From Malaciobacter halophilus (GTDB lineage: Bacteria; Campylobacterota; Campylobacteria; Campylobacterales; Arcobacteraceae), in the NCBI RefSeq assembly GCF_002837275.1, contig NZ_NXIF01000005.1, forward strand, positions 1-64,000: a DNA stretch of 64,000 nt. The letters run 5' to 3'. Each line of letters begins with the position of its first letter. Within the stretch, counting starts at the first letter, position 1. Below the pieces are notes generated by a model, which ran no database searches, had not been told where the DNA came from, and worked only from the letters and a program-made list of their open reading frames with translations. Positions 9,695 through 28,931 of the stretch are shown in pieces. Position numbers and translations under genes: made by a program.

Positions 9695-10939
9695 ATGATA
9701 GATATAAAGTTACTACAAAAAGATTATGAAACTACTGCAAATGCTCTAAAAAGAAAGGGTGTTGCTCAAGAATTACTTGATAGTTTAAAAACAATCTCAC
9801 AAGATGCTAAAGTAAAAAGACAAAGTATGGAAGAGGTTACTGCTGAACAAAATAGACTATCAAAAGAGTTTGGAAGATATAAAAAAGAGGGACTTGATAT
9901 AGCACCATTACAAAAAAATATTGGTGAGTTAAAATCAAAAAAACAAGATTTAGAAGATGAAGTAAGAGTTTTAGAAGAGAAATTAACTTCAATTGCTTTG
10001 GGTGTTCCAAACTTTCCAGATGAAAATGTTCCAAATGGTGAAAGTGAAGATGAAAATGTTGTTTTAGAAACTATTGGAGAAAAACCTTCTTTTGATTTTG
10101 AACCAAAGGAGCATTGGGATTTAGGTGAAAAAAATGGATGGTTAGATTTTGAAAGAGGAGTAAAGCTAGCTAAATCTAGATTTTCAGCTATGAAAGGAGT
10201 TGCTGCAAGATTAGAAAGAGCATTGATTAATTATATGCTTGATTTTAATAGACAAAGAGGTTTTGAAGAGTGGTATGTTCCTTTTATGGCAAACTCAAAT
10301 ACTTTGCAAGGTACGGGACAACTTCCTAAGTTTGAAGATGATTTATTTAAAATTGAGGGTGAGGACTTATATCTTATTCCTACAGCTGAGGTAAGTCTTA
10401 CGAATCTTTATAGTGATGAAATAATTGCAGTTGATGAACTACCTTTAATGTTAACTTCATATACTCCATGTTTTAGAAAAGAAGCAGGAAGTGCAGGGCG
10501 TGATACTAGAGGATTAATTAGACAACATCAATTTGACAAAGTTGAAATGGTAGCAATTACTAAACAAGAAGACTCAGAAGAAGTATTTGAAAAAATGGTT
10601 GCTTGTGCTAGTGATTTATTGACTTCTCTTGGACTTGCACATCAAAAAGTGATGCTTTGTACAGGTGATTTAGGATTTAGTGCTGCAAAAACAATTGACT
10701 TAGAAGTTTGGCTTCCAGGACAAAATAAATATAGAGAAATCTCTTCAATCTCAAATACTAAAGAGTTTCAAGCAAGACGTGCAAAAATTAGATATAAAGA
10801 GAATAAAAAGAATATTTTAGCACATACATTAAATGGTTCTTCTTTAGCAGTAGGAAGAACTTTAGTAGCTATTATGGAAAACTATCAACAAGAAGATGGT
10901 TCTATAAAAATACCTGAAGTACTTAAAAAGTATATGTAA
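9695..10939 (+). CDS. serS: Seryl-tRNA synthetase
   Basis: The 414-residue class II synthetase charges tRNA-Ser with serine. The N-terminal coiled-coil arm (about residues 25-105) binds tRNA. The catalytic core shows motif 2 ([20 protein letters not shown]) and motif 3 ([19 protein letters not shown]), and its length is normal. It is transcribed alone on the plus strand from a TATAAT promoter and ends at a strong hairpin 17 bases after the stop codon. Nothing unusual is seen. Confidence 0.97.
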
Positions 10940-10985: not shown

Positions 10986-11053
10986 AAAAATTAAATTCGC
11001 AATTTTAATAATACATTCACATCTATTTATCAATAATTTAAGAAGTAAATTTT

Positions 11054-11105
11054 AATTCTCTCTTTAGTTCATAGTTAGGAATGAGAATGACTAAATGAGA
11101 GAATT
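11054..11105. repeat. Imperfect inverted repeat next to the candidate small RNA
   Basis: AATTCTCTCTTTAGT (11054-11068) faces ACTAAATGAGAGAATT (11090-11105), pairing along 15 bases with one bulged base and a 21-base loop. It lies directly beyond the T-run of the small RNA on the minus strand. It has no U-tract of its own, so it is not an obvious terminator. Confidence 0.6.
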
Positions 11106-11179
11106 AAAAAAAAGACAAAAGAAGTTTTGTAAGACTTATTATGTAGGGAAGGAGACATATATATAAGTAAAACTTCTTT
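11106..11179 (-). ncRNA. Candidate small RNA: single hairpin, U-tract, all-pyrimidine loop
   Basis: Starting at the A predicted by the promoter (base 11179), the minus strand reads AAAGAAGTTTT, which pairs with AAAACTTCTTT (11118-11128). Inside lie a second helix ACTTAT/ATAAGT and a short ATGT/ACAT stem closing the loop CTCCTTCCCT (11145-11154). The hairpin is followed by TTTGTC and nine T residues. The whole transcript would be about 74 bases. The loop is complementary to AGGGAAGGAG, a Shine-Dalgarno-like sequence. Helicobacter pylori RepG also acts through a C/U-rich terminator loop, but I see no sequence relation. Expression is untested. Confidence 0.6.
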
Positions 11180-11227
11180 GACCGTATTATATAACTTTAT
11201 AAAAATTATATACTTGATTTATATCAA
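11179..11227 (-). promoter_or_regulatory. Crp/Fnr-activated promoter of the candidate small RNA
   Basis: TTGATTTATATCAA (11214-11227) is a perfect TTGAT-N4-ATCAA box centred at 11220.5. On the minus strand TATAAT occupies 11191-11186 and predicts a start at 11179, exactly 41.5 bases from the box centre, which is the class II activator spacing. The same geometry is found at nrfH and napA. Confidence 0.75.
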
Positions 11228-11319: not shown

Positions 11320-14300
11320 TTATAGTAATTTTCTATTTCTAAATGCAAGTGCAATTATAAAGAGTATAATAAGTGCACTTACTGGAACAAAAGTAGGAAT
11401 AGGTACAGGGTCACCAGCTGCATAAGAATGTTTTCCACTTAAATAGTAGTTTACTCCAAAATAAGTCATGATAATTGAAGCATAACTTATAAGTGATAAT
11501 ACTGCATATAAAAACTCTGTTAAAATACCTTTTATATAGCGTAAATGAATAATCACAGCATAAATTAAAATAGATACTAATGTCCATGTCTCTTTTGGAT
11601 CCCAACCCCAATATCTACCCCAAGATTCATTTGCCCAAATACCTCCTAAAAAGTTACCTATTACTAATAAAACTAATCCTATTAAAAGTGACATCTCATT
11701 TATTCTATTGGCTTCTTTTATACTTAGAAGAATAGAAAAGAAGTTTTCATTTTCTTTATTTTTATTTATTAAAGCAAAAAGAGTTAAAGCTATAAAACCA
11801 AGTAAAGCACTTAATCCTAAAAAGCCATAACTTGCAGTAATAACACTAACATGAATAGTAAGCCAATATGATTTTAAAACAGGTGCTAAAGTCGTAATTT
11901 GTGGTTCCATCCAGCTTAAATGAGCAACAAATAGTGTAATTCCACTTAATATACCAGTTGTTGCTAATGCAAGATTTGATTGTCTTGAGAAAAACATCCC
12001 TGATAATACTATTGCCCAAGCAATATAAATCATTGATTCATAACCATTTGACCAAGGAGCATGACCTGCTACATACCATCTAAGTGCAAGTCCAAAAGTA
12101 TGAACAATAAATCCTAAAGTAAGTAATATAAGAGTGATTTGTGTAAACTTTTTTATATTAAGATTTTGTTTAAAAATATTTATAAAAACAGTTATTAAAA
12201 GAGTAAATCCTAAAATCAAATAATAAGGTGTTAATCTTTCAAAAATGTTATATTTATTAAACATTAATTCTGCTTGTATTTTCCATTTTGTTGGTATTAT
12301 ATGTGTTGCATATTTTTTTTGAAATAGTTTAATTTCATCTAATTTTTCATTAACTTCATCCCAAGAGCTACTATTTTCATTTGCTTGTTTTAAAGTAATA
12401 AAATAGTCTTGCATAAGTTGTTTTATATTAAGTGCTTGTTCTTTTGGCATACTAATATCAGAACTATCATCTAAAACTCTTAACGCAATAGAAGGAGCAA
12501 CCCATCTATTTTTTTCATCATAAGCTATTGGAAAAGCTTTAAAAAAATCTCCTATAAATAATGAATATGCAATATTTAATCTTTCATCAACTTTGATTAG
12601 TTCTTTGTCAAGTTTTGTTCTATTTATAGGTTTTTTTGTATTAGCTTTTTCTAAAAGATTTTGAAGTTTATATTTCCCATCTTTTGTATATATATCATTA
12701 AAACTTATAGCTTTTTTATTTTTATCAATTTTTAAAATCTCTTTTAATTTATCGTTTTTTATTTTTATAAATTCAACACTTTGCCAAACTTTTGGGTATA
12801 ACATCATACTTAAAAAGAATTGGTTTTCATCAAGATTAAAAATCTTATCTTTTCTTGCTATTTTATTTACAATTTCAATAGCTAGTGAGTTAACTGGTTT
12901 TATTCTTCCTTGATAATCTTGAATTAAAAAACTTCCAAAATAATCTGAATGTTCTTTATCAATATTTTTAATACTGCTAATTAACTCTTCATTAATTACA
13001 TTTTTTGCAAAAGATGGTGTATTTAGACCAAGTAGTAAAAAAAGTGTTAATAAAATTGAATTTGAAACATTTTTTAATTTGTAATCTCTTTTTATCTGTT
13101 CAATATTAAACTTTTTGTTACTTAGTTTTCTAAATCTTCCATTTTTACTAAAAAGATTTAAAAACAGACCTGTAAAAAGTAAGAAATATCCAATGTATGT
13201 AGGTATTTTTCCTGGGTCTTTATTTACTGATAATATTGTTGCAGTTTCATCTTGTTTATAAGAAGATTGAAAAAATCTATATCCTTTATAATCTAAAGTA
13301 TTATTCATATAGATTCTATAAAATTTATTCTCTTTTAAATTTTTATCAACTATTTCAATATCACTTAAATATGATGATGGAGAGTTAGAACCAGGGTATC
13401 TATCAAGTTGAAAATCTAATAATTTTATGCTAAAAGGAAGAGTTATAGGCTTAGAACCCCACTGTAATTTAAAATTTATTCCTTGAAAAGTTGTTTTAGA
13501 AATAAACCCTTTATTTGAGCCACCTTTTCCATATAAAGCAATTTTTTTACTTTTGTTATTAAAGATTAAATCAACTAAAATAGCATCTAGCTGATTTTCT
13601 TTTTTTATTTGATTGTTTTGTGCACTCACAACTTTTAAAGTACCTTTTACACTTGCTTGTTTAATCATAAATTGAGTTTGCCCCACTTTATATACTCTTG
13701 TTTTAGATAAAATTATCTCTTTATTTGCTGGAATTATTCCATCTTTTTTATTTTCAATTGAATACCACGCAGTAGAGATATTTGCTTTATATAAAATTTG
13801 TCCATTTTTTTTAGTTGTGATTGTTACAAGAGGTCTTTTATAATCTTTTAGTTGTTTATTTAATGCAAAATCTAAAAATTGTGTCTTTTTTAGTTGTGTA
13901 TCTTTTAAGTCTATACTTTTAACTCCACTAAATGTTGATACTACTATATTTGCCATTGGAATACCATTTTCATCATCAACTATTTGTTCAATAGCATTTG
14001 GTACAAATTTATCAAATTTAATTTTGATATTTTTATTTTTAAAATTAAAATTATGTTCAAAATTTGTTTGATTAAGTTTAGTCATTAAAACTTTTTGCTC
14101 ATATTTTAAATTTTCATTTTGTCTATTTGCTTCTATTTGAATATATTCATCAAGTGTATAAATGATATTTTGTTTTTTACCTTCATCAATTGTCATGGTT
14201 GCTTCATAACCTAAATATCTAGTAAGTGCTGAACCTATAAAAATAAAAATAAAAGAGATATGAATTAATAAAATAAAAAATTTCTTTTTTTGATACATTT

Positions 14301-14505
14301 TAAACCAATAGATGTTAAAAACTACACCTAAAGTTAGTATTAACATTATTAATTCAAACCAAGTTTGTCCATATATGAAAGATTTTGCGCCTAAGGGCCC
14401 AAAGTCATTCTCTACAAAAGTAGCAACTGCACATGCAAGAGCAAAAAATAGCATAAATACAGTCATGATTTCCATACTAAAAAGATTTCTTATTGTTTTT
14501 TTCAT
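11320..14505 (-). CDS. CcsBA-type cytochrome c synthase, probably NrfI-like
   Basis: The 1061-residue fusion joins a ResB/CcsB part (four helices within residues 1-480, with a long periplasmic segment about 100-420) to a periplasmic linker and a C-terminal CcsA part (about 750-1061, eight or so helices). The haem-handling WWD-type motif GGIWANESWGRYWGWDPKET is present. Such proteins export haem and attach it to CXXCH or CXXCK motifs. In Wolinella succinogenes the nrf-encoded homologue NrfI is needed for the CXXCK haem of NrfA, and here the gene follows nrfA, whose first haem site is CWTCK. Dedication to that site is inferred; it could be the general synthase. Confidence 0.92.
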   Translation of the reverse strand: MKKTIRNLFSMEIMTVFMLFFALACAVATFVENDFGPLGAKSFIYGQTWFELIMLILTLGVVFNIYWFKMYQKKKFFILLIHISFIFIFIGSALTRYLGYEATMTIDEGKKQNIIYTLDEYIQIEANRQNENLKYEQKVLMTKLNQTNFEHNFNFKNKNIKIKFDKFVPNAIEQIVDDENGIPMANIVVSTFSGVKSIDLKDTQLKKTQFLDFALNKQLKDYKRPLVTITTKKNGQILYKANISTAWYSIENKKDGIIPANKEIILSKTRVYKVGQTQFMIKQASVKGTLKVVSAQNNQIKKENQLDAILVDLIFNNKSKKIALYGKGGSNKGFISKTTFQGINFKLQWGSKPITLPFSIKLLDFQLDRYPGSNSPSSYLSDIEIVDKNLKENKFYRIYMNNTLDYKGYRFFQSSYKQDETATILSVNKDPGKIPTYIGYFLLFTGLFLNLFSKNGRFRKLSNKKFNIEQIKRDYKLKNVSNSILLTLFLLLGLNTPSFAKNVINEELISSIKNIDKEHSDYFGSFLIQDYQGRIKPVNSLAIEIVNKIARKDKIFNLDENQFFLSMMLYPKVWQSVEFIKIKNDKLKEILKIDKNKKAISFNDIYTKDGKYKLQNLLEKANTKKPINRTKLDKELIKVDERLNIAYSLFIGDFFKAFPIAYDEKNRWVAPSIALRVLDDSSDISMPKEQALNIKQLMQDYFITLKQANENSSSWDEVNEKLDEIKLFQKKYATHIIPTKWKIQAELMFNKYNIFERLTPYYLILGFTLLITVFINIFKQNLNIKKFTQITLILLTLGFIVHTFGLALRWYVAGHAPWSNGYESMIYIAWAIVLSGMFFSRQSNLALATTGILSGITLFVAHLSWMEPQITTLAPVLKSYWLTIHVSVITASYGFLGLSALLGFIALTLFALINKNKENENFFSILLSIKEANRINEMSLLIGLVLLVIGNFLGGIWANESWGRYWGWDPKETWTLVSILIYAVIIHLRYIKGILTEFLYAVLSLISYASIIMTYFGVNYYLSGKHSYAAGDPVPIPTFVPVSALIILFIIALAFRNRKLL

Positions 14506-14531
14506 AAATTAATCCATAAAATATTTAAATT

Positions 14532-14580
14532 TTATAAGTAACACAAGAAGTAAGGAAGATAGGGATTGTGTTACTTATAA
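14532..14580 (-). other. Long hairpin in the ccsBA leader
   Basis: A perfect 15-base inverted repeat TTATAAGTAACACAA / TTGTGTTACTTATAA encloses a 19-base loop that is almost all pyrimidine on the transcribed minus strand (TCCCTATCTTCCTTACTTC). It lies after the nrfA terminator and 27 bases before the ccsBA start. No U-tract follows, so it is better read as an mRNA leader structure than as a terminator. Confidence 0.65.
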
Positions 14581-14595
14581 AAGTTAGAGTATATA

Positions 14596-14623
14596 ATAAA
14601 AAGAGGGAAAATCCTCTTTTTAT
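14596..14623 (-). terminator. nrfA terminator
   Basis: ATAAAAAGAGG and CCTCTTTTTAT form an 11-base stem around a six-base loop, two bases after the nrfA stop codon. The minus-strand 3' arm ends in five T residues followed by ATTATAT. Read-through into ccsBA is likely if the two are co-expressed. Confidence 0.7.
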
Positions 14624-14625
14624 TT

Positions 14626-16119
14626 TTAGTTATAAGAAGTTTTATCTTCTATTCCTTTTGTAGATTCTGGATTATAAAGACCTTTTTTCTCAGCCTCTTT
14701 TTTCCATTGTGGTACTAAGTTTTTGTTGAATCTTTCTTTATCTTCAACAAGTTTTTTAAATGGAAGTCCAATAATTTTTTGAGCTTCTTCTTTAGTTTTA
14801 TACTCAGGTGCCTTATAATCAACAGCTCCATGTTTAGCTAAAATTTTAGCTAATTTGATTCTAGCTTGTCCAGCTTTATCAATAGCAGTTGCTAATACTC
14901 TTAGTGTTTCTTCTGGTGCATGGAAGAAAGCAGGGTGTGAAGCAACAGCATAATCCCATCTCCATTGTGCGTGTCTAATATCTTTTAATACAGGTGCCAT
15001 CTCTTCTTTAGTAGCTCCCACTTCCCAAGCTTTACCAGCTTCTAGGTGCGCAGCAGAGATTTGAACCATAGCTTTTTTATGAAGCTCATTTTTTCTTTCT
15101 CTTTTTTCATTGATATTAGCAAGTAACTCTTTTTCACTAACTCTGTGGCAATTCATACAAGTTTTACTCATATTCTCTAATGGATTACCAATATTGTGGT
15201 CAGTATATTTGATTCCACCCTCTTGTGTATATGGCATGTGACAATCTGCACAAGAAACATTATTTCTTCCATGTGCACCTGTTTTCCACATTTCATATCC
15301 TGGGTGCTGAGCTTTTAACATTGGAGTTTTTGAAATCTTATGTGTCCAATCAGAAAACTCAATTTCATCATAGTATTTTTCCATATCATCAACTGTAAAA
15401 CCATTTTTCCATGGTAATGTAACAACAGCTGCTTTTTTACCACTAGCAGTTTTTCTTTTGTCAAAATAGTACTCTACGTGACATTGAGCACAAACTAATG
15501 TTCTCATATCTTGTTGAGTAGCATCTTCCATTTTTAGTGTACCTTCTGTTGCTAATGCTCTATCAAGATACTTTCTATTTACTTGTAACTCCATTGTTTT
15601 AGGGTTGTGACAGTCCATACATCCAATTGGATTTATAACTTCTGAACCATATTTTGCCCATTTGCCTGTGAAGTACTCTTCTTCACCTTGTTCATCCATT
15701 AATCTTGGAACATCTGGTGATTTACAAGTCCAACATGCAGTTGGCATTGGTCCAGTTTTTTCATCAACTGGTGCTCCTGTTCTTAATGTATTTCTATTGT
15801 CTTCAATTGCATAAAAGTGCCCTCTTGGAGCATTATAATCTTTTGAAAACCCATATCCTGCCCATAACACAACAAGCTCAGGATACTCTTTTAACATATC
15901 ATGGATATCATCAGAGTTTTTAGTCTGTTTCCAAGAATCAAACTGTCTTGGATAGTACTTTCTAAACTCTTCATTTTTTGTTTCCCATCTTTTTTCCATT
16001 TGTGGAACACTGTTAATCTGTTTTTGTTCATCTTTTTTTTCATTAATTGACGCAACTAAAACAGACATTAGTCCAATTGCTATTAAAGAAATAGCAAGAA
16101 GAATTTTATATTTTTTCAT
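14626..16119 (-). CDS. nrfA: Ammonia-forming cytochrome c nitrite reductase, catalytic subunit
   Basis: The 497-residue periplasmic pentahaem enzyme reduces nitrite to ammonium with six electrons supplied through NrfH. After a signal anchor (residues 5-24) it has the lysine-ligated active-site haem motif CWTCK (129-133) and four CXXCH motifs: CMDCH (167), CAQCH (210), CADCH (290) and CMNCH (321). The length matches the family. It is twelve bases downstream of nrfH, in the same orientation, under a Crp/Fnr-type promoter, and is followed by an NrfI-like haem lyase gene. The assignment is firm. Confidence 0.97.
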   Translation of the reverse strand: MKKYKILLAISLIAIGLMSVLVASINEKKDEQKQINSVPQMEKRWETKNEEFRKYYPRQFDSWKQTKNSDDIHDMLKEYPELVVLWAGYGFSKDYNAPRGHFYAIEDNRNTLRTGAPVDEKTGPMPTACWTCKSPDVPRLMDEQGEEEYFTGKWAKYGSEVINPIGCMDCHNPKTMELQVNRKYLDRALATEGTLKMEDATQQDMRTLVCAQCHVEYYFDKRKTASGKKAAVVTLPWKNGFTVDDMEKYYDEIEFSDWTHKISKTPMLKAQHPGYEMWKTGAHGRNNVSCADCHMPYTQEGGIKYTDHNIGNPLENMSKTCMNCHRVSEKELLANINEKRERKNELHKKAMVQISAAHLEAGKAWEVGATKEEMAPVLKDIRHAQWRWDYAVASHPAFFHAPEETLRVLATAIDKAGQARIKLAKILAKHGAVDYKAPEYKTKEEAQKIIGLPFKKLVEDKERFNKNLVPQWKKEAEKKGLYNPESTKGIEDKTSYN

Positions 16120-16131
16120 GACAACTTACCT

Positions 16132-16671
16132 CTATTTCATTTTTTCTTTAACCCCAAGATTATATGGAGTTGATATTAAACTACGAACTTTACCGTGTGG
16201 CACATATTTGTGACACTCCCAGCACTTTCTACCAGTCTCAAGACTTCCGTCTTCACCGCTATGATATTTGTCAGCATTTAGCTTCAATGTCGCACTTTCA
16301 CTTGCATGACATCGAATACAGTTAGCTTGTACACGGCTTGCACCATCATCACTTATTTGAATATTGTTCTCATAAGTGTTTAATGTGAATGCAACTGAGT
16401 GATTCCACCCATCTATTGCTTTTGATTTGTATTTTGCTACAACATCTCCAACAGGTAGGTGACAATCAACACATCCTGCCACATTTTTATGTGAACTTTT
16501 TTCCCAAGTTGCATAGGCTGAATTCATTGTATGACAATTAATACAGGCCTTTGGGTCACTTGATAAATATGACAACATGTTAGATGCATATACTGTGTAA
16601 ACAAAAAGCGAAGCGGCAACAAGAATACTTAAAACTGTTCCATAAACAACAATTTTTTTGTTCTTTTCCAT
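16132..16671 (-). CDS. nrfH: NrfH, membrane tetrahaem quinol dehydrogenase of the nitrite reductase
   Basis: This 179-residue NapC/NirT-family protein has one N-terminal membrane helix (about residues 8-29) and four CXXCH motifs: CINCH (43), CVDCH, CIRCH and CWECH. It oxidises menaquinol and passes electrons to NrfA, with which it forms a membrane complex. It is the first gene of nrfHA. The leader is 19 bases with AAAGGA as ribosome site, and a Crp/Fnr box is centred 41.5 bases before the predicted start. Confidence 0.95.
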   Translation of the reverse strand: MEKNKKIVVYGTVLSILVAASLFVYTVYASNMLSYLSSDPKACINCHTMNSAYATWEKSSHKNVAGCVDCHLPVGDVVAKYKSKAIDGWNHSVAFTLNTYENNIQISDDGASRVQANCIRCHASESATLKLNADKYHSGEDGSLETGRKCWECHKYVPHGKVRSLISTPYNLGVKEKMK

Positions 16672-16689: not shown

Positions 16690-16738
16690 CTCTGAAATTA
16701 TAAAATTAATTAAAGGTAACTCTCTTGACTTAAATCAA
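16690..16738 (-). promoter_or_regulatory. Crp/Fnr-activated promoter of nrfHA
   Basis: TTGACTTAAATCAA (16725-16738) is a TTGA-N6-TCAA palindrome centred at 16731.5. TATAAT on the minus strand at 16702-16697 predicts a start at 16690, giving a class II spacing of exactly 41.5 bases. Confidence 0.8.
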
Positions 16739-16986: not shown

Positions 16987-17376
16987 TTATTTTACATAAA
17001 CTTTAAAATCATATGTTTTATTATCAATCTTAACTTTAATATATCCTTTAGTTACTGTATAGTGTTTATAGGTTAATACTTCTGCTATTTTTATCTTTCT
17101 TTTATTAAATATAGATTCAGATTTTTGGAAATATCCTTTAGAATTTCCAATGTACACTTCTGGCTTAGTATGAAAATATTGTCCAAAAACAACAATTTTA
17201 GTGTAACAAGTACCATTATAATCAGCTTTTGTTCTTCTAGTATGTTGTACATTTTCACCATTTCCATGTTCATCAAAGATTCCAATGGCATGGGCACTTT
17301 TAATATTTGTTGAAGCACTATAAAGGTTTAAAGATAAAAAAAGTAAAACTACTTTAAAAAAAATCAATTTTTTCAT
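16987..17376 (-). CDS. Small exported protein of unknown function at the end of the nap operon
   Basis: I do not recognise a family. The 129 residues begin with a signal peptide (1-21, ending LYSAS), so the mature protein should be periplasmic. The rest is basic and tyrosine-rich with a single cysteine (NGTCYTK) and a lysine-rich C-terminal half with alternating hydrophobic and polar residues typical of beta strands (VKIDNKTYDFKVYVK). It starts 42 bases after the PAS gene on the same strand with no terminator between, so it is probably co-transcribed with nap. There is no haem or metal motif. Confidence 0.7.
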   Translation of the reverse strand: MKKLIFFKVVLLFLSLNLYSASTNIKSAHAIGIFDEHGNGENVQHTRRTKADYNGTCYTKIVVFGQYFHTKPEVYIGNSKGYFQKSESIFNKRKIKIAEVLTYKHYTVTKGYIKVKIDNKTYDFKVYVK

Positions 17377-24916: not shown

Positions 24917-24965
24917 CATAAGAATTGTATCACTTATTTTAAATATAATAATTGACCTTAGTCAA
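24917..24965 (-). promoter_or_regulatory. Crp/Fnr-activated promoter of the nap operon
   Basis: TTGACCTTAGTCAA (24952-24965) is a TTGA-N6-TCAA palindrome centred at 24958.5. TACAAT on the minus strand (24929-24924) predicts a start at 24917, 41.5 bases from the centre. The box also faces the divergent precorrin-2 dehydrogenase gene, with a possible GATAAT at 24986-24991 on that side. Confidence 0.78.
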
Positions 24966-25638: not shown

Positions 25639-26619
25639 CTACTTAGATTTACAATTTAGTGCAAGAGAGTTTAACTCTTTTTTTAACTCTTCAAGTTTAT
25701 GTGTGAAATTAAGTAAATTTTCTTGAGACTCAATTACCATATCTTCACTTTTATTTAATTGGCTAGATAAATCCCTTGAATCTTTTAACTCTTCTAATAT
25801 TTCATCAAATTCATCTGTTAAATCTTCTAATTTTTTTGAAGCATTATTTGAGTAATCCATAGCAGAGTTTATTTTATTTATAAAGCAGTTTAAAGTATCA
25901 GTTGCTTCTACAATCTCTTTTTCTGCTTCAAACTCTATTAAATCTATTGGTTCATTTAAAGTTCCTTCTTTTATCTGTTTTGATAAATCAAGAAATTTTT
26001 TTACATTCTCTTCCATAGCTTTTAACTGAATAAAACTATATATAATAAGAAGGATTATTATAAAAGCAAAAAGATATTGAAAATATTTAATATAGTTTGT
26101 TTTTCTTTCTGCATAAGTAGTATATAAACTAACAATCTTATCAACTTCATTTAGAAGATTATTATTAGTTGCATATACTGTATCAACTAAGATTTTTAGT
26201 GTTTTTTCATTTTTTGGTGTTCTGTTTTGAAGTAGTTTTTTTATATCTTGTACATTTTTATAAAAGTTTGTCCATAAAATCTCTACTTTTGAGATTTGAT
26301 TTGAAATATCAGCTGTTGGAGCAGGGTCTATTCCAATTAAATGATTTCCATCTTTTAATGAGTTTAGATTATAAATAAACTCTTGTGTAGCATTATCTAG
26401 TTCTGAAAAGCTATGTTGATTATTGTGATAAAGATAGAATACATTTTTTGATATTCTTTGCGTAAGCATTCTTTGTTTACCTGCAATATTTATAATTAAA
26501 GCATCTTTTTCATTTTTTGCGTTTAGGTATATTGTTGTTCCTATAACACTTGACATTAAAATGATAAATAGCAAACCTATTGTTTTTATTTTATTACTTA
26601 TAGTTTTTGTTTTTCTCAT
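25639..26619 (-). CDS. NarX-like PilJ-domain sensor without kinase or chemoreceptor output
   Basis: The 326-residue protein has a helix at 11-30, a periplasmic four-helix PilJ/NarX-type domain (31-180) containing a P-box-like stretch INIAGKQRMLTQRISKN that in NarX binds nitrate, a second helix (181-200), a HAMP-like region (about 200-255) and a cytoplasmic coiled coil to the end. It has no HisKA, HATPase, GGDEF or chemoreceptor hairpin motif. It overlaps the stop codon of the Crp/Fnr gene as ATGA, so the two are translationally coupled. A nitrate or nitrite sensing role is inferred from the P-box and neighbours. Confidence 0.82.
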   Translation of the reverse strand: MRKTKTISNKIKTIGLLFIILMSSVIGTTIYLNAKNEKDALIINIAGKQRMLTQRISKNVFYLYHNNQHSFSELDNATQEFIYNLNSLKDGNHLIGIDPAPTADISNQISKVEILWTNFYKNVQDIKKLLQNRTPKNEKTLKILVDTVYATNNNLLNEVDKIVSLYTTYAERKTNYIKYFQYLFAFIIILLIIYSFIQLKAMEENVKKFLDLSKQIKEGTLNEPIDLIEFEAEKEIVEATDTLNCFINKINSAMDYSNNASKKLEDLTDEFDEILEELKDSRDLSSQLNKSEDMVIESQENLLNFTHKLEELKKELNSLALNCKSK

Positions 26620-27281
26620 ACCCCAACTCCTTTGAACATAGATACGAGCTCCTCTTTATTTAATATTGTCACTTTGCTACTTTGAATAGATATAGTACCA
26701 CTTCTACTTAATCTTTTTAAAACTCTTGATAGTGTTTCTGGTTGAATATGTAGCATAAAAGAGACTTCTTGTCTTTTTAATTTGTTAAACATATCTAAAT
26801 CTTGAGCTAACATGAAAGCAACTTTTGCAGTTGCATCAAATACTAATTCTCTGTTTATAATACATTGAAACTGTTGACTCTTATTTAATAATACTTCTAT
26901 TAGCTTTGATGTGAGTATATTTTTGTCTAAAAAATGCTCTTTAAATTTTTCAAAATCAATAGATAAAACAGTAGAATCTTCTGTAAATTCTGCATTTGAA
27001 AAACAGTGTATTTCACTACTATTTAAAGATGAAAGTTCAGAAATCATACTATTTTTATAAATGTGATATAAAAAAATTTCATTTCCAAATTTATCTACTT
27101 TATATATTTTAATTAAACCCTTAACTAAAAAAAGTAGTTTGTTATTTATATCACTTTCATAATATAAAATAGACTTTTCTGGATAGGTCGATACATTTGA
27201 AAATTCTGAAAGAGTTTGTATTTGTTCTTCGGTTAACTCTTCAAAAAAATCAATGTTTTTTATGGTATCTTTTAGCAGCAA
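26616..27281 (-). CDS. Crp/Fnr family transcriptional regulator (nap-nrf island, first copy)
   Basis: The 221-residue protein has a cyclic-nucleotide-type beta-roll sensor domain (about 15-125), a dimer helix and a winged helix with recognition segment PETLSRVLKRL. The E..SR pattern is that of FNR, which reads TTGA half-sites, matching the boxes at napA, nrfH and the small RNA. It lacks the FNR iron-sulfur cysteine cluster (only two scattered cysteines), so it is more like Dnr/NssR-type regulators, which answer to nitrogen oxides. The start is TTG behind GAGGG. It is followed by the coupled PilJ sensor gene. Confidence 0.9.
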   Translation of the reverse strand: MLLKDTIKNIDFFEELTEEQIQTLSEFSNVSTYPEKSILYYESDINNKLLFLVKGLIKIYKVDKFGNEIFLYHIYKNSMISELSSLNSSEIHCFSNAEFTEDSTVLSIDFEKFKEHFLDKNILTSKLIEVLLNKSQQFQCIINRELVFDATAKVAFMLAQDLDMFNKLKRQEVSFMLHIQPETLSRVLKRLSRSGTISIQSSKVTILNKEELVSMFKGVGV

Positions 27282-28304: not shown

Positions 28305-28931
28305 ATGAATTTAAAAGAGCTTTATTTATTTAAAGATTTAGACGATAGTACTATAAAGCAAATAGAACACATTAGTGTTAAAAGTAAGTTTTCAAAGGAT
28401 AATATTATCTTTTATGAAGGTGAAGATTCTAAATATTTACATCTTCTAATAAAAGGAATAGTAAAACTTTATAAAAGTACAAGTAGTAATAAGGAGATTG
28501 TAATGAAATACTTCTATGACAATGAACTTATTGCTGAGTTAAGTAATTTTGAAAATATTCCTTATCCTGCAAGTGCAGTTGCTTATAGTGATTGTGAAGT
28601 ATTAAGAGTTGATTTTGAGAAGTTTAGAAAAATAATATATTCAAATGAAGATTTAATTTTAAAAATTCAATCTTCATTGATAAAAAAGATAAAAAATTTA
28701 GAAAGAATTATATCTTCTCAATTGGTTTTAGATACTCATCAAAGAGTTGCAAAGTATATAGTTGAGCATCAAGAAGATTTTTTTAAAACAAAAAATATTT
28801 TGATTGCTCAAATGCTTAATATTACGCCTGAAACTTTATCAAGAGTTCTTCGAAATTATAAAGATAAAGGTTATATTGATATGAAAAATAAAACTATAAA
28901 TCAAGAAGAGTTGATTAGTATATATAGTTAA
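28305..28931 (+). CDS. Crp/Fnr family transcriptional regulator (second copy)
   Basis: The 208-residue protein has the same layout as the divergent regulator: a beta-roll domain (about 8-115), a long dimer helix and a winged helix with TPETLSRVLRNYKDKGYI, again with the E..SR pattern expected to read TTGA. There is a single cysteine, so no FNR-type cluster. It follows the TrpD2-like gene in one operon and lies 67 bases before moaA. The two regulators may share or compete for the same boxes. Confidence 0.9.
   Translation: MNLKELYLFKDLDDSTIKQIEHISVKSKFSKDNIIFYEGEDSKYLHLLIKGIVKLYKSTSSNKEIVMKYFYDNELIAELSNFENIPYPASAVAYSDCEVLRVDFEKFRKIIYSNEDLILKIQSSLIKKIKNLERIISSQLVLDTHQRVAKYIVEHQEDFFKTKNILIAQMLNITPETLSRVLRNYKDKGYIDMKNKTINQEELISIYS

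Follow-up and report, generated by a model that had tools for sequence, protein, structure and literature searches.

The intergenic region between serS and ccsBA of Malaciobacter halophilus appears to contain a conserved RNA gene under a class II Crp/Fnr-type promoter of its own, a reading that is well supported by sequence comparison. We consider it moderately probable that the gene stands by itself and yields a regulatory RNA that acts in trans, is activated by a Crp/Fnr-family protein and base-pairs with several mRNAs via two loops. The comparison covers six genomes of one genus, in which a conserved DNA element, its promoter geometry, covariation in the second hairpin (H2) and invariant loops were seen directly. 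Throughout, the window is the whole 64-kb stretch of DNA that was analysed.

From these observations we infer that the element is transcribed and that its RNA base-pairs, and we likewise infer its activator, its signal and its targets. In this reading the nitrate/nitrite/NO regulon has a Crp/Fnr-family activator, probably one of two encoded near nap, which would bind at -41.5 and switch on an RNA of about 130 nt consisting of two stem-loops. The C/U-rich loops UCUCCUUCCCU and CAUUCUCAUUCCUAA would base-pair with ribosome-binding regions rich in purines on several mRNAs, lowering translation of these targets on a shift to nitrate respiration or an encounter with NO. In the best candidate targets, loop 2 would cover the mRNA of a dksA/traR-type regulator from the Shine-Dalgarno sequence to the GUG start, and loop 1 the Shine-Dalgarno sequence of ackA (acetate kinase). 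By analogy with RoxS/RsaE, RepG and FnrS, base pairing appears to be the likeliest mode of action.

Promoter geometry and candidate regulon

The element lies where serS (plus strand, stop at 10939) and ccsBA (minus strand, stop at 11320) converge. On the minus strand, a Crp/Fnr-type box TTGAT-N4-ATCAA (TTGATATAAATCAA, 11214–11227, centre 11220.5) is identical in all six genus genomes, and the last base of a -10 box TATAAT (11186–11191) is 34.5 from the box centre in each of them. The predicted RNA start is 11179 on the same strand, where hairpin 1 (H1) begins, placing the box centre at -41.5, the class II distance. The position between convergent genes, the perfect box, the TATAAT and the 41.5-base distance to the start had all been described in an initial annotation of this DNA and are borne out by the sequence. 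Its broader claim, of a so far undescribed RNA gene with a class II Crp/Fnr-type promoter of its own, is supported, the element being kept in six genomes. A direct repeat, ATTCGCA-N13-ATTCACA (10995–11021, plus strand), lies between serS and the RNA; it occupies the same position in G001, G003 and G005, and by eye also in G002 and G004, and four samples, about 1.26 Mb altogether, contain no other repeat of this kind.

Taken alone, the palindromic box carries little weight as evidence, because 0.8 exact chance occurrences are expected per 64 kb on both strands. The looser signature of box, 21–23 nt and TANNAT is expected 0.07 times in the window and was observed at exactly three sites, before napA, nrfH and the RNA. 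Across the six genomes the exact signature TTGAT-N4-ATCAA-N22-TATAAT is found at one to four places in each genome, with no control matches (n = 0), and precedes the RNA in all six, a hybrid-cluster-protein (hcp) gene assigned by its Prismane family in four, and nrfH in G001. The class II promoter before nrfH in the window (TTGATTTAAGTCAA-N22-TATAAT, 16697–16738, minus strand; nrfH by NCBIfam TIGR03153) likely belongs to a shared regulon, and this architecture is also found before nrfH in G003 and G001. That before napA (TTGACTAAGGTCAA-N22-TACAAT, 24924–24965, minus strand; napA by NCBIfam) is conserved in six genomes. The hcp, nap and nrf genes are classical members of FNR-, DNR-, HcpR- or Nss-controlled regulons. 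Because the same promoter geometry stands before napA, nrfH and hcp, the RNA probably belongs to a Crp/Fnr nitrate/nitrite/NO regulon and is probably induced by low oxygen or nitrate. Such induction had been suggested from this locus alone; the matching geometry at the three respiratory loci strengthens the suggestion, the induction itself being a prediction.

Two Crp/Fnr-family regulators near nap are candidate activators of the RNA, one at 26616–27281 (minus strand) and one at 28305–28931 (plus strand). Each has Pfam domains PF13545 and PF00027 and an E-x-x-S-R recognition helix (PETLSR in both), and no FNR-type cysteine cluster was seen near the N-terminus of either, so that the signal might be oxygen, nitrate or NO. 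The DNR binding motif resembles TTGATnnnnATCAA (PMC1274295), and Wolinella has three proteins, NssA, NssB and NssC, with responses to nitrate, NO and N2O (PMC6682613). A third Crp-like gene (G000:C31:22303-22524) shares its contig with additional genes of the molybdopterin oxidoreductase type. Loop 1 of the present genome finds a complement in the start region of this gene, AAAGGGAAGGGAAAAAAGTG; the complementarity is nearly complete in G003 and lacking in G005 and G002.

Conservation and structure of the RNA element

A covariance model recovered the element from all six genus genomes (E of 1.7e-19 or better), always adjoining serS and convergent with it. The box, the -10, their spacing, a 23-nt H1 loop region and CAUUCCUAA in H2 are identical in the six, while the flanks diverge. 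On the other side the neighbour is ccsBA in the present genome, G003 and G001, whereas G002, G004 and G005 have an unrelated small gene there; in G001 the element lies about 280 bases further from serS. The initial annotation had proposed looking for relatives that have the neighbouring genes but no longer the box, stem and loop; all six genomes retain the element, including those in which one neighbour has changed. The nrfHA-ccsBA block (11320–16671, minus strand) separates the RNA from a small gene at 16987–17376 in this genome. This block was gained or lost here, because a homologue of the small gene directly adjoins the RNA in G002, G004 and G005, where the block is missing from this position; neither nrfA nor ccsBA was found in a 400-kb sample of G005.

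Among 104 genomes of the family, the covariance model gave no convincing match in the other 98. Weak matches in other genera (E 0.015–0.8) were rejected as simple terminators or coding-like sequence without a box, and a scan downstream of serS in other genera, covering all but the last three loci, found no exact box. An exact search of genome contigs for the loops returned one Arcobacter record (sp. CECT 8985, Arcobacteraceae) and two unrelated genomes resembling chance. Within the 64-kb window, searches for tRNA and tmRNA and for Rfam families at curated cut-offs, FnrS included, gave no match. Our literature search found no description of the RNA; the accessible part of a survey of Arcobacter sp. 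L reports rare intergenic motifs confined to the genus, which it leaves unnamed (PMC6429828).

The RNA is predicted to fold into two hairpins, which together have a z of -7.0 against shuffled sequence. In H1 (11118–11179, minus strand; z = -4.0 against shuffled sequence), the outer stem is 11 bp long and the loop includes the C/U-rich UCUCCUUCCCU. The loop and closing stem of H1 (AUGUCUCCUUCCCUACAUAAUAA, 11136–11158), 23 nt identical in all six genomes, form the presumed recognition loop 1. H2 (about 11048–11108, minus strand; z = -6.7) probably forms the 3' end of the complete RNA and acts as its weak intrinsic terminator. Its loop (UCAUUCUCAUUCCUAAC, 11074–11090), the presumed recognition loop 2, has an invariant core CAUUCCUAA in the six genomes and is likewise C- and U-rich (CAUUCUCAUUCCUAAC). 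Six base pairs of H2 are changed on both sides, compared with 1.3 in shuffles (0 of 500 shuffles as high), and this covariation signal is lost when the pairing partners are slid as a shift control. The outer 9 bp of H1 are invariant, and with no variation in its outer stem across the six genomes covariation gives no test of that outer stem. A search of related genomes for stem compensation and an invariant loop, as proposed earlier, has been answered by two invariant loops and compensatory changes in H2, the H1 outer stem being unvaried.

The initial annotation described a single hairpin and an RNA of about 74 bases ending at a T-run. Its stable H1, 11-bp stem, C/U loop and T-run are all present; the second hairpin, however, had been missed, and the short RNA is probably not the common form. 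The U8 run after H1 (11106–11113, minus strand) is found in the alignment only in this genome among the six, where it may act as an early terminator. Because the run exists only here, the RNA in its common form probably ends after H2 at a length of about 130 nt rather than 74 nt.

Candidate targets and alternative explanations

Two targets proposed earlier for the RNA fared poorly. The napA pairing covers 7 bp, no more than the Shine-Dalgarno sequence, and comes fifth among the 62 window genes; the first Crp/Fnr gene, whose start is preceded by AGGGAA, is outside the eight strongest loop-1 pairings of window genes. Loop 1 did not pair significantly better with ribosome sites than permuted C/U loops did (17 of 200 permutations as good), and matches to the full loop-1 complement in the six genomes were not enriched over backward controls. 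Targets were sought as loop complements in the six genomes and then set against a background of three 400-kb samples with 227 ortholog triples; this sample is about a seventh (~14%) of each genome, to which the statistics, uncorrected genome-wide, refer.

Better candidate targets, to be taken as leads, are a dksA/traR-type gene for loop 2 and ackA for loop 1. The start region AAGGGAUGAGAGUGGCU of the dksA/traR-type gene (zinc finger, Pfam PF01258) is predicted to pair with H2 at -20.3 kcal/mol in the present genome, -24.0 in G003 (with 15 contiguous pairs to loop 2), -20.4 in G004, -20.1 in G005, -15.4 in G002 and -13.1 in G001. This gene is the best of the 227 triples (z = -4.9), with 4 of 120 permuted loops as good; the present genome, G004 and G002 were outside its selection, yet the pairing was seen there too. 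For ackA, the start region is predicted to pair with loop 1 at -24.5, -24.5, -22.9, -20.4, -14.7 and -12.5 kcal/mol in the six genomes. This gene is again the best of the 227 triples, with 13 of 120 permuted loops as good, and a reversed-loop control gave a top match as extreme as ackA (z = -3.9). Where a pairing at a ribosome site is conserved, the cause may be that the site itself is conserved or shared by descent. The start TAAGGAGTGAGAATG of a membrane-transporter-like gene matches H2 in G004 and G005, and the identical string occurs also in G002. A PilJ-domain sensor gene (25639–26619, minus strand), which overlaps the end of the first Crp/Fnr gene, was rejected as an H2 target (its start region pairs strongly here, at -19.7 kcal/mol, but not in the five relatives), as were conserved loop-complement matches inside long reading frames, which are coding-sequence coincidences.

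The RNA could be made and activated as proposed while its invariant loops bind a protein, as a sponge or scaffold, and not mRNAs. Complete invariance of the 23-nt H1 loop and closing stem would fit this, as would a general complementarity to ribosome sites no higher than that of permuted loops; however, the loops of the transcribed strand have no GGA motif for CsrA, and the two conserved ribosome-site pairings are stronger than those of most permuted loops, and we judge this reading unlikely. GGA is found in the loops of the opposite strand (AGGGAAGGAGA and AGGAATGAGAA), which folds equally well and might act as a CsrA-type sponge. The conserved -10 at class II distance is nevertheless on the minus strand only and no conserved plus-strand promoter was seen, so that a functional plus-strand RNA seems very improbable.

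A bidirectional terminator or 3'-UTR element of serS/ccsBA, with no independent gene, might also be expected between convergent genes, and terminator-like hairpins are present on both strands. Yet serS already has a hairpin of its own directly after its stop, from which the element is further removed in G001, and the box, -10 and loops are identical whether the upstream neighbour is ccsBA (three genomes) or the unrelated gene (three genomes); we regard this explanation as improbable. An mRNA for a small peptide, read from an AUG in the H1 closing stem (MSPSLHNKS...), has hardly any credibility. An ORF of 26–28 codons does follow that AUG in four of the six genomes, but the frame is only 10 codons long in G001 and 16 in G003 and is unconserved past codon 9, third codon positions are as invariant as the remaining ones, and no Shine-Dalgarno sequence precedes the AUG. 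The peptide was rejected on the unconserved frame and the absent ribosome-binding site.

Comparison with known regulatory RNAs

FnrS acts together with Hfq. It resembles the proposed base-pairing RNA in being a stand-alone small RNA with FNR-type activation, as described in Escherichia coli and Salmonella (PMC8139620); the corresponding feature here, an FNR-type box (TTGAT-N4-ATCAA) at -41.5 of the RNA's own promoter, is present in six genomes. There is no detectable sequence relation to FnrS, because the window gave no Rfam match at the curated cut-off, and H. pylori and C. jejuni are without Hfq (PMC8322730, PMC3847290). RoxS/RsaE of Bacillus and Staphylococcus are induced by NO, and their C-rich regions pair with the Shine-Dalgarno sequences of mRNAs for central metabolism (PMC8216469, PMC8139620). 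Acetate metabolism is a further parallel, with acsA predicted as a RoxS/RsaE target and ackA proposed here. RoxS/RsaE are, however, controlled by ResD and Rex rather than Crp/Fnr, and no sequence relation was found.

RepG of Helicobacter pylori, from the same phylum, is an RNA that acts in trans and has a C/U-rich loop within a stem-loop (PMC8295292). Such a loop and stem are seen here in the sequence and predicted fold, and trans action would be shared by the proposed base-pairing RNA. The RepG locus is flanked by hp1043 and hp1044, and the targets with which RepG pairs are homopolymeric G repeats, whereas the present RNA has mixed-sequence loops, the complement of which is a mixed purine sequence and not a G run, a locus beside serS in six genomes and a promoter with a Crp/Fnr box. 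We do not assign it to the FnrS, RoxS/RsaE or RepG family. NarS, PaiI and DenR are likewise small RNAs tied to nitrate respiration (PMC8139620); NarS is processed from the narK 3' UTR and PaiI is NarL-dependent, descriptions that set both apart from the RNA here.

On sequence grounds, the RNA looks like a new family of an FnrS- or RoxS-like kind. Most of what is known about small RNAs in Campylobacterota comes from Helicobacter and Campylobacter, and our literature search found no report of a Crp/Fnr-activated small RNA in the phylum. If the reading is true, free-living Arcobacteraceae have a small RNA in their nitrate/NO regulon, and the reading makes clear predictions: one activator, one start site, two loops and two candidate targets. 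Only tentatively do we suggest that a new RNA family with two independent C/U-rich loops may connect growth control (the DksA-type regulator) and acetate metabolism (ackA) in Campylobacterota with the sensing of nitrate and NO by Nss/DNR-like Crp/Fnr proteins. The setting of the proposed family is a phylum whose studied members have no Hfq, and it would test an independent origin of FnrS/RoxS-type riboregulation of respiration in bacteria thought to lack that protein.
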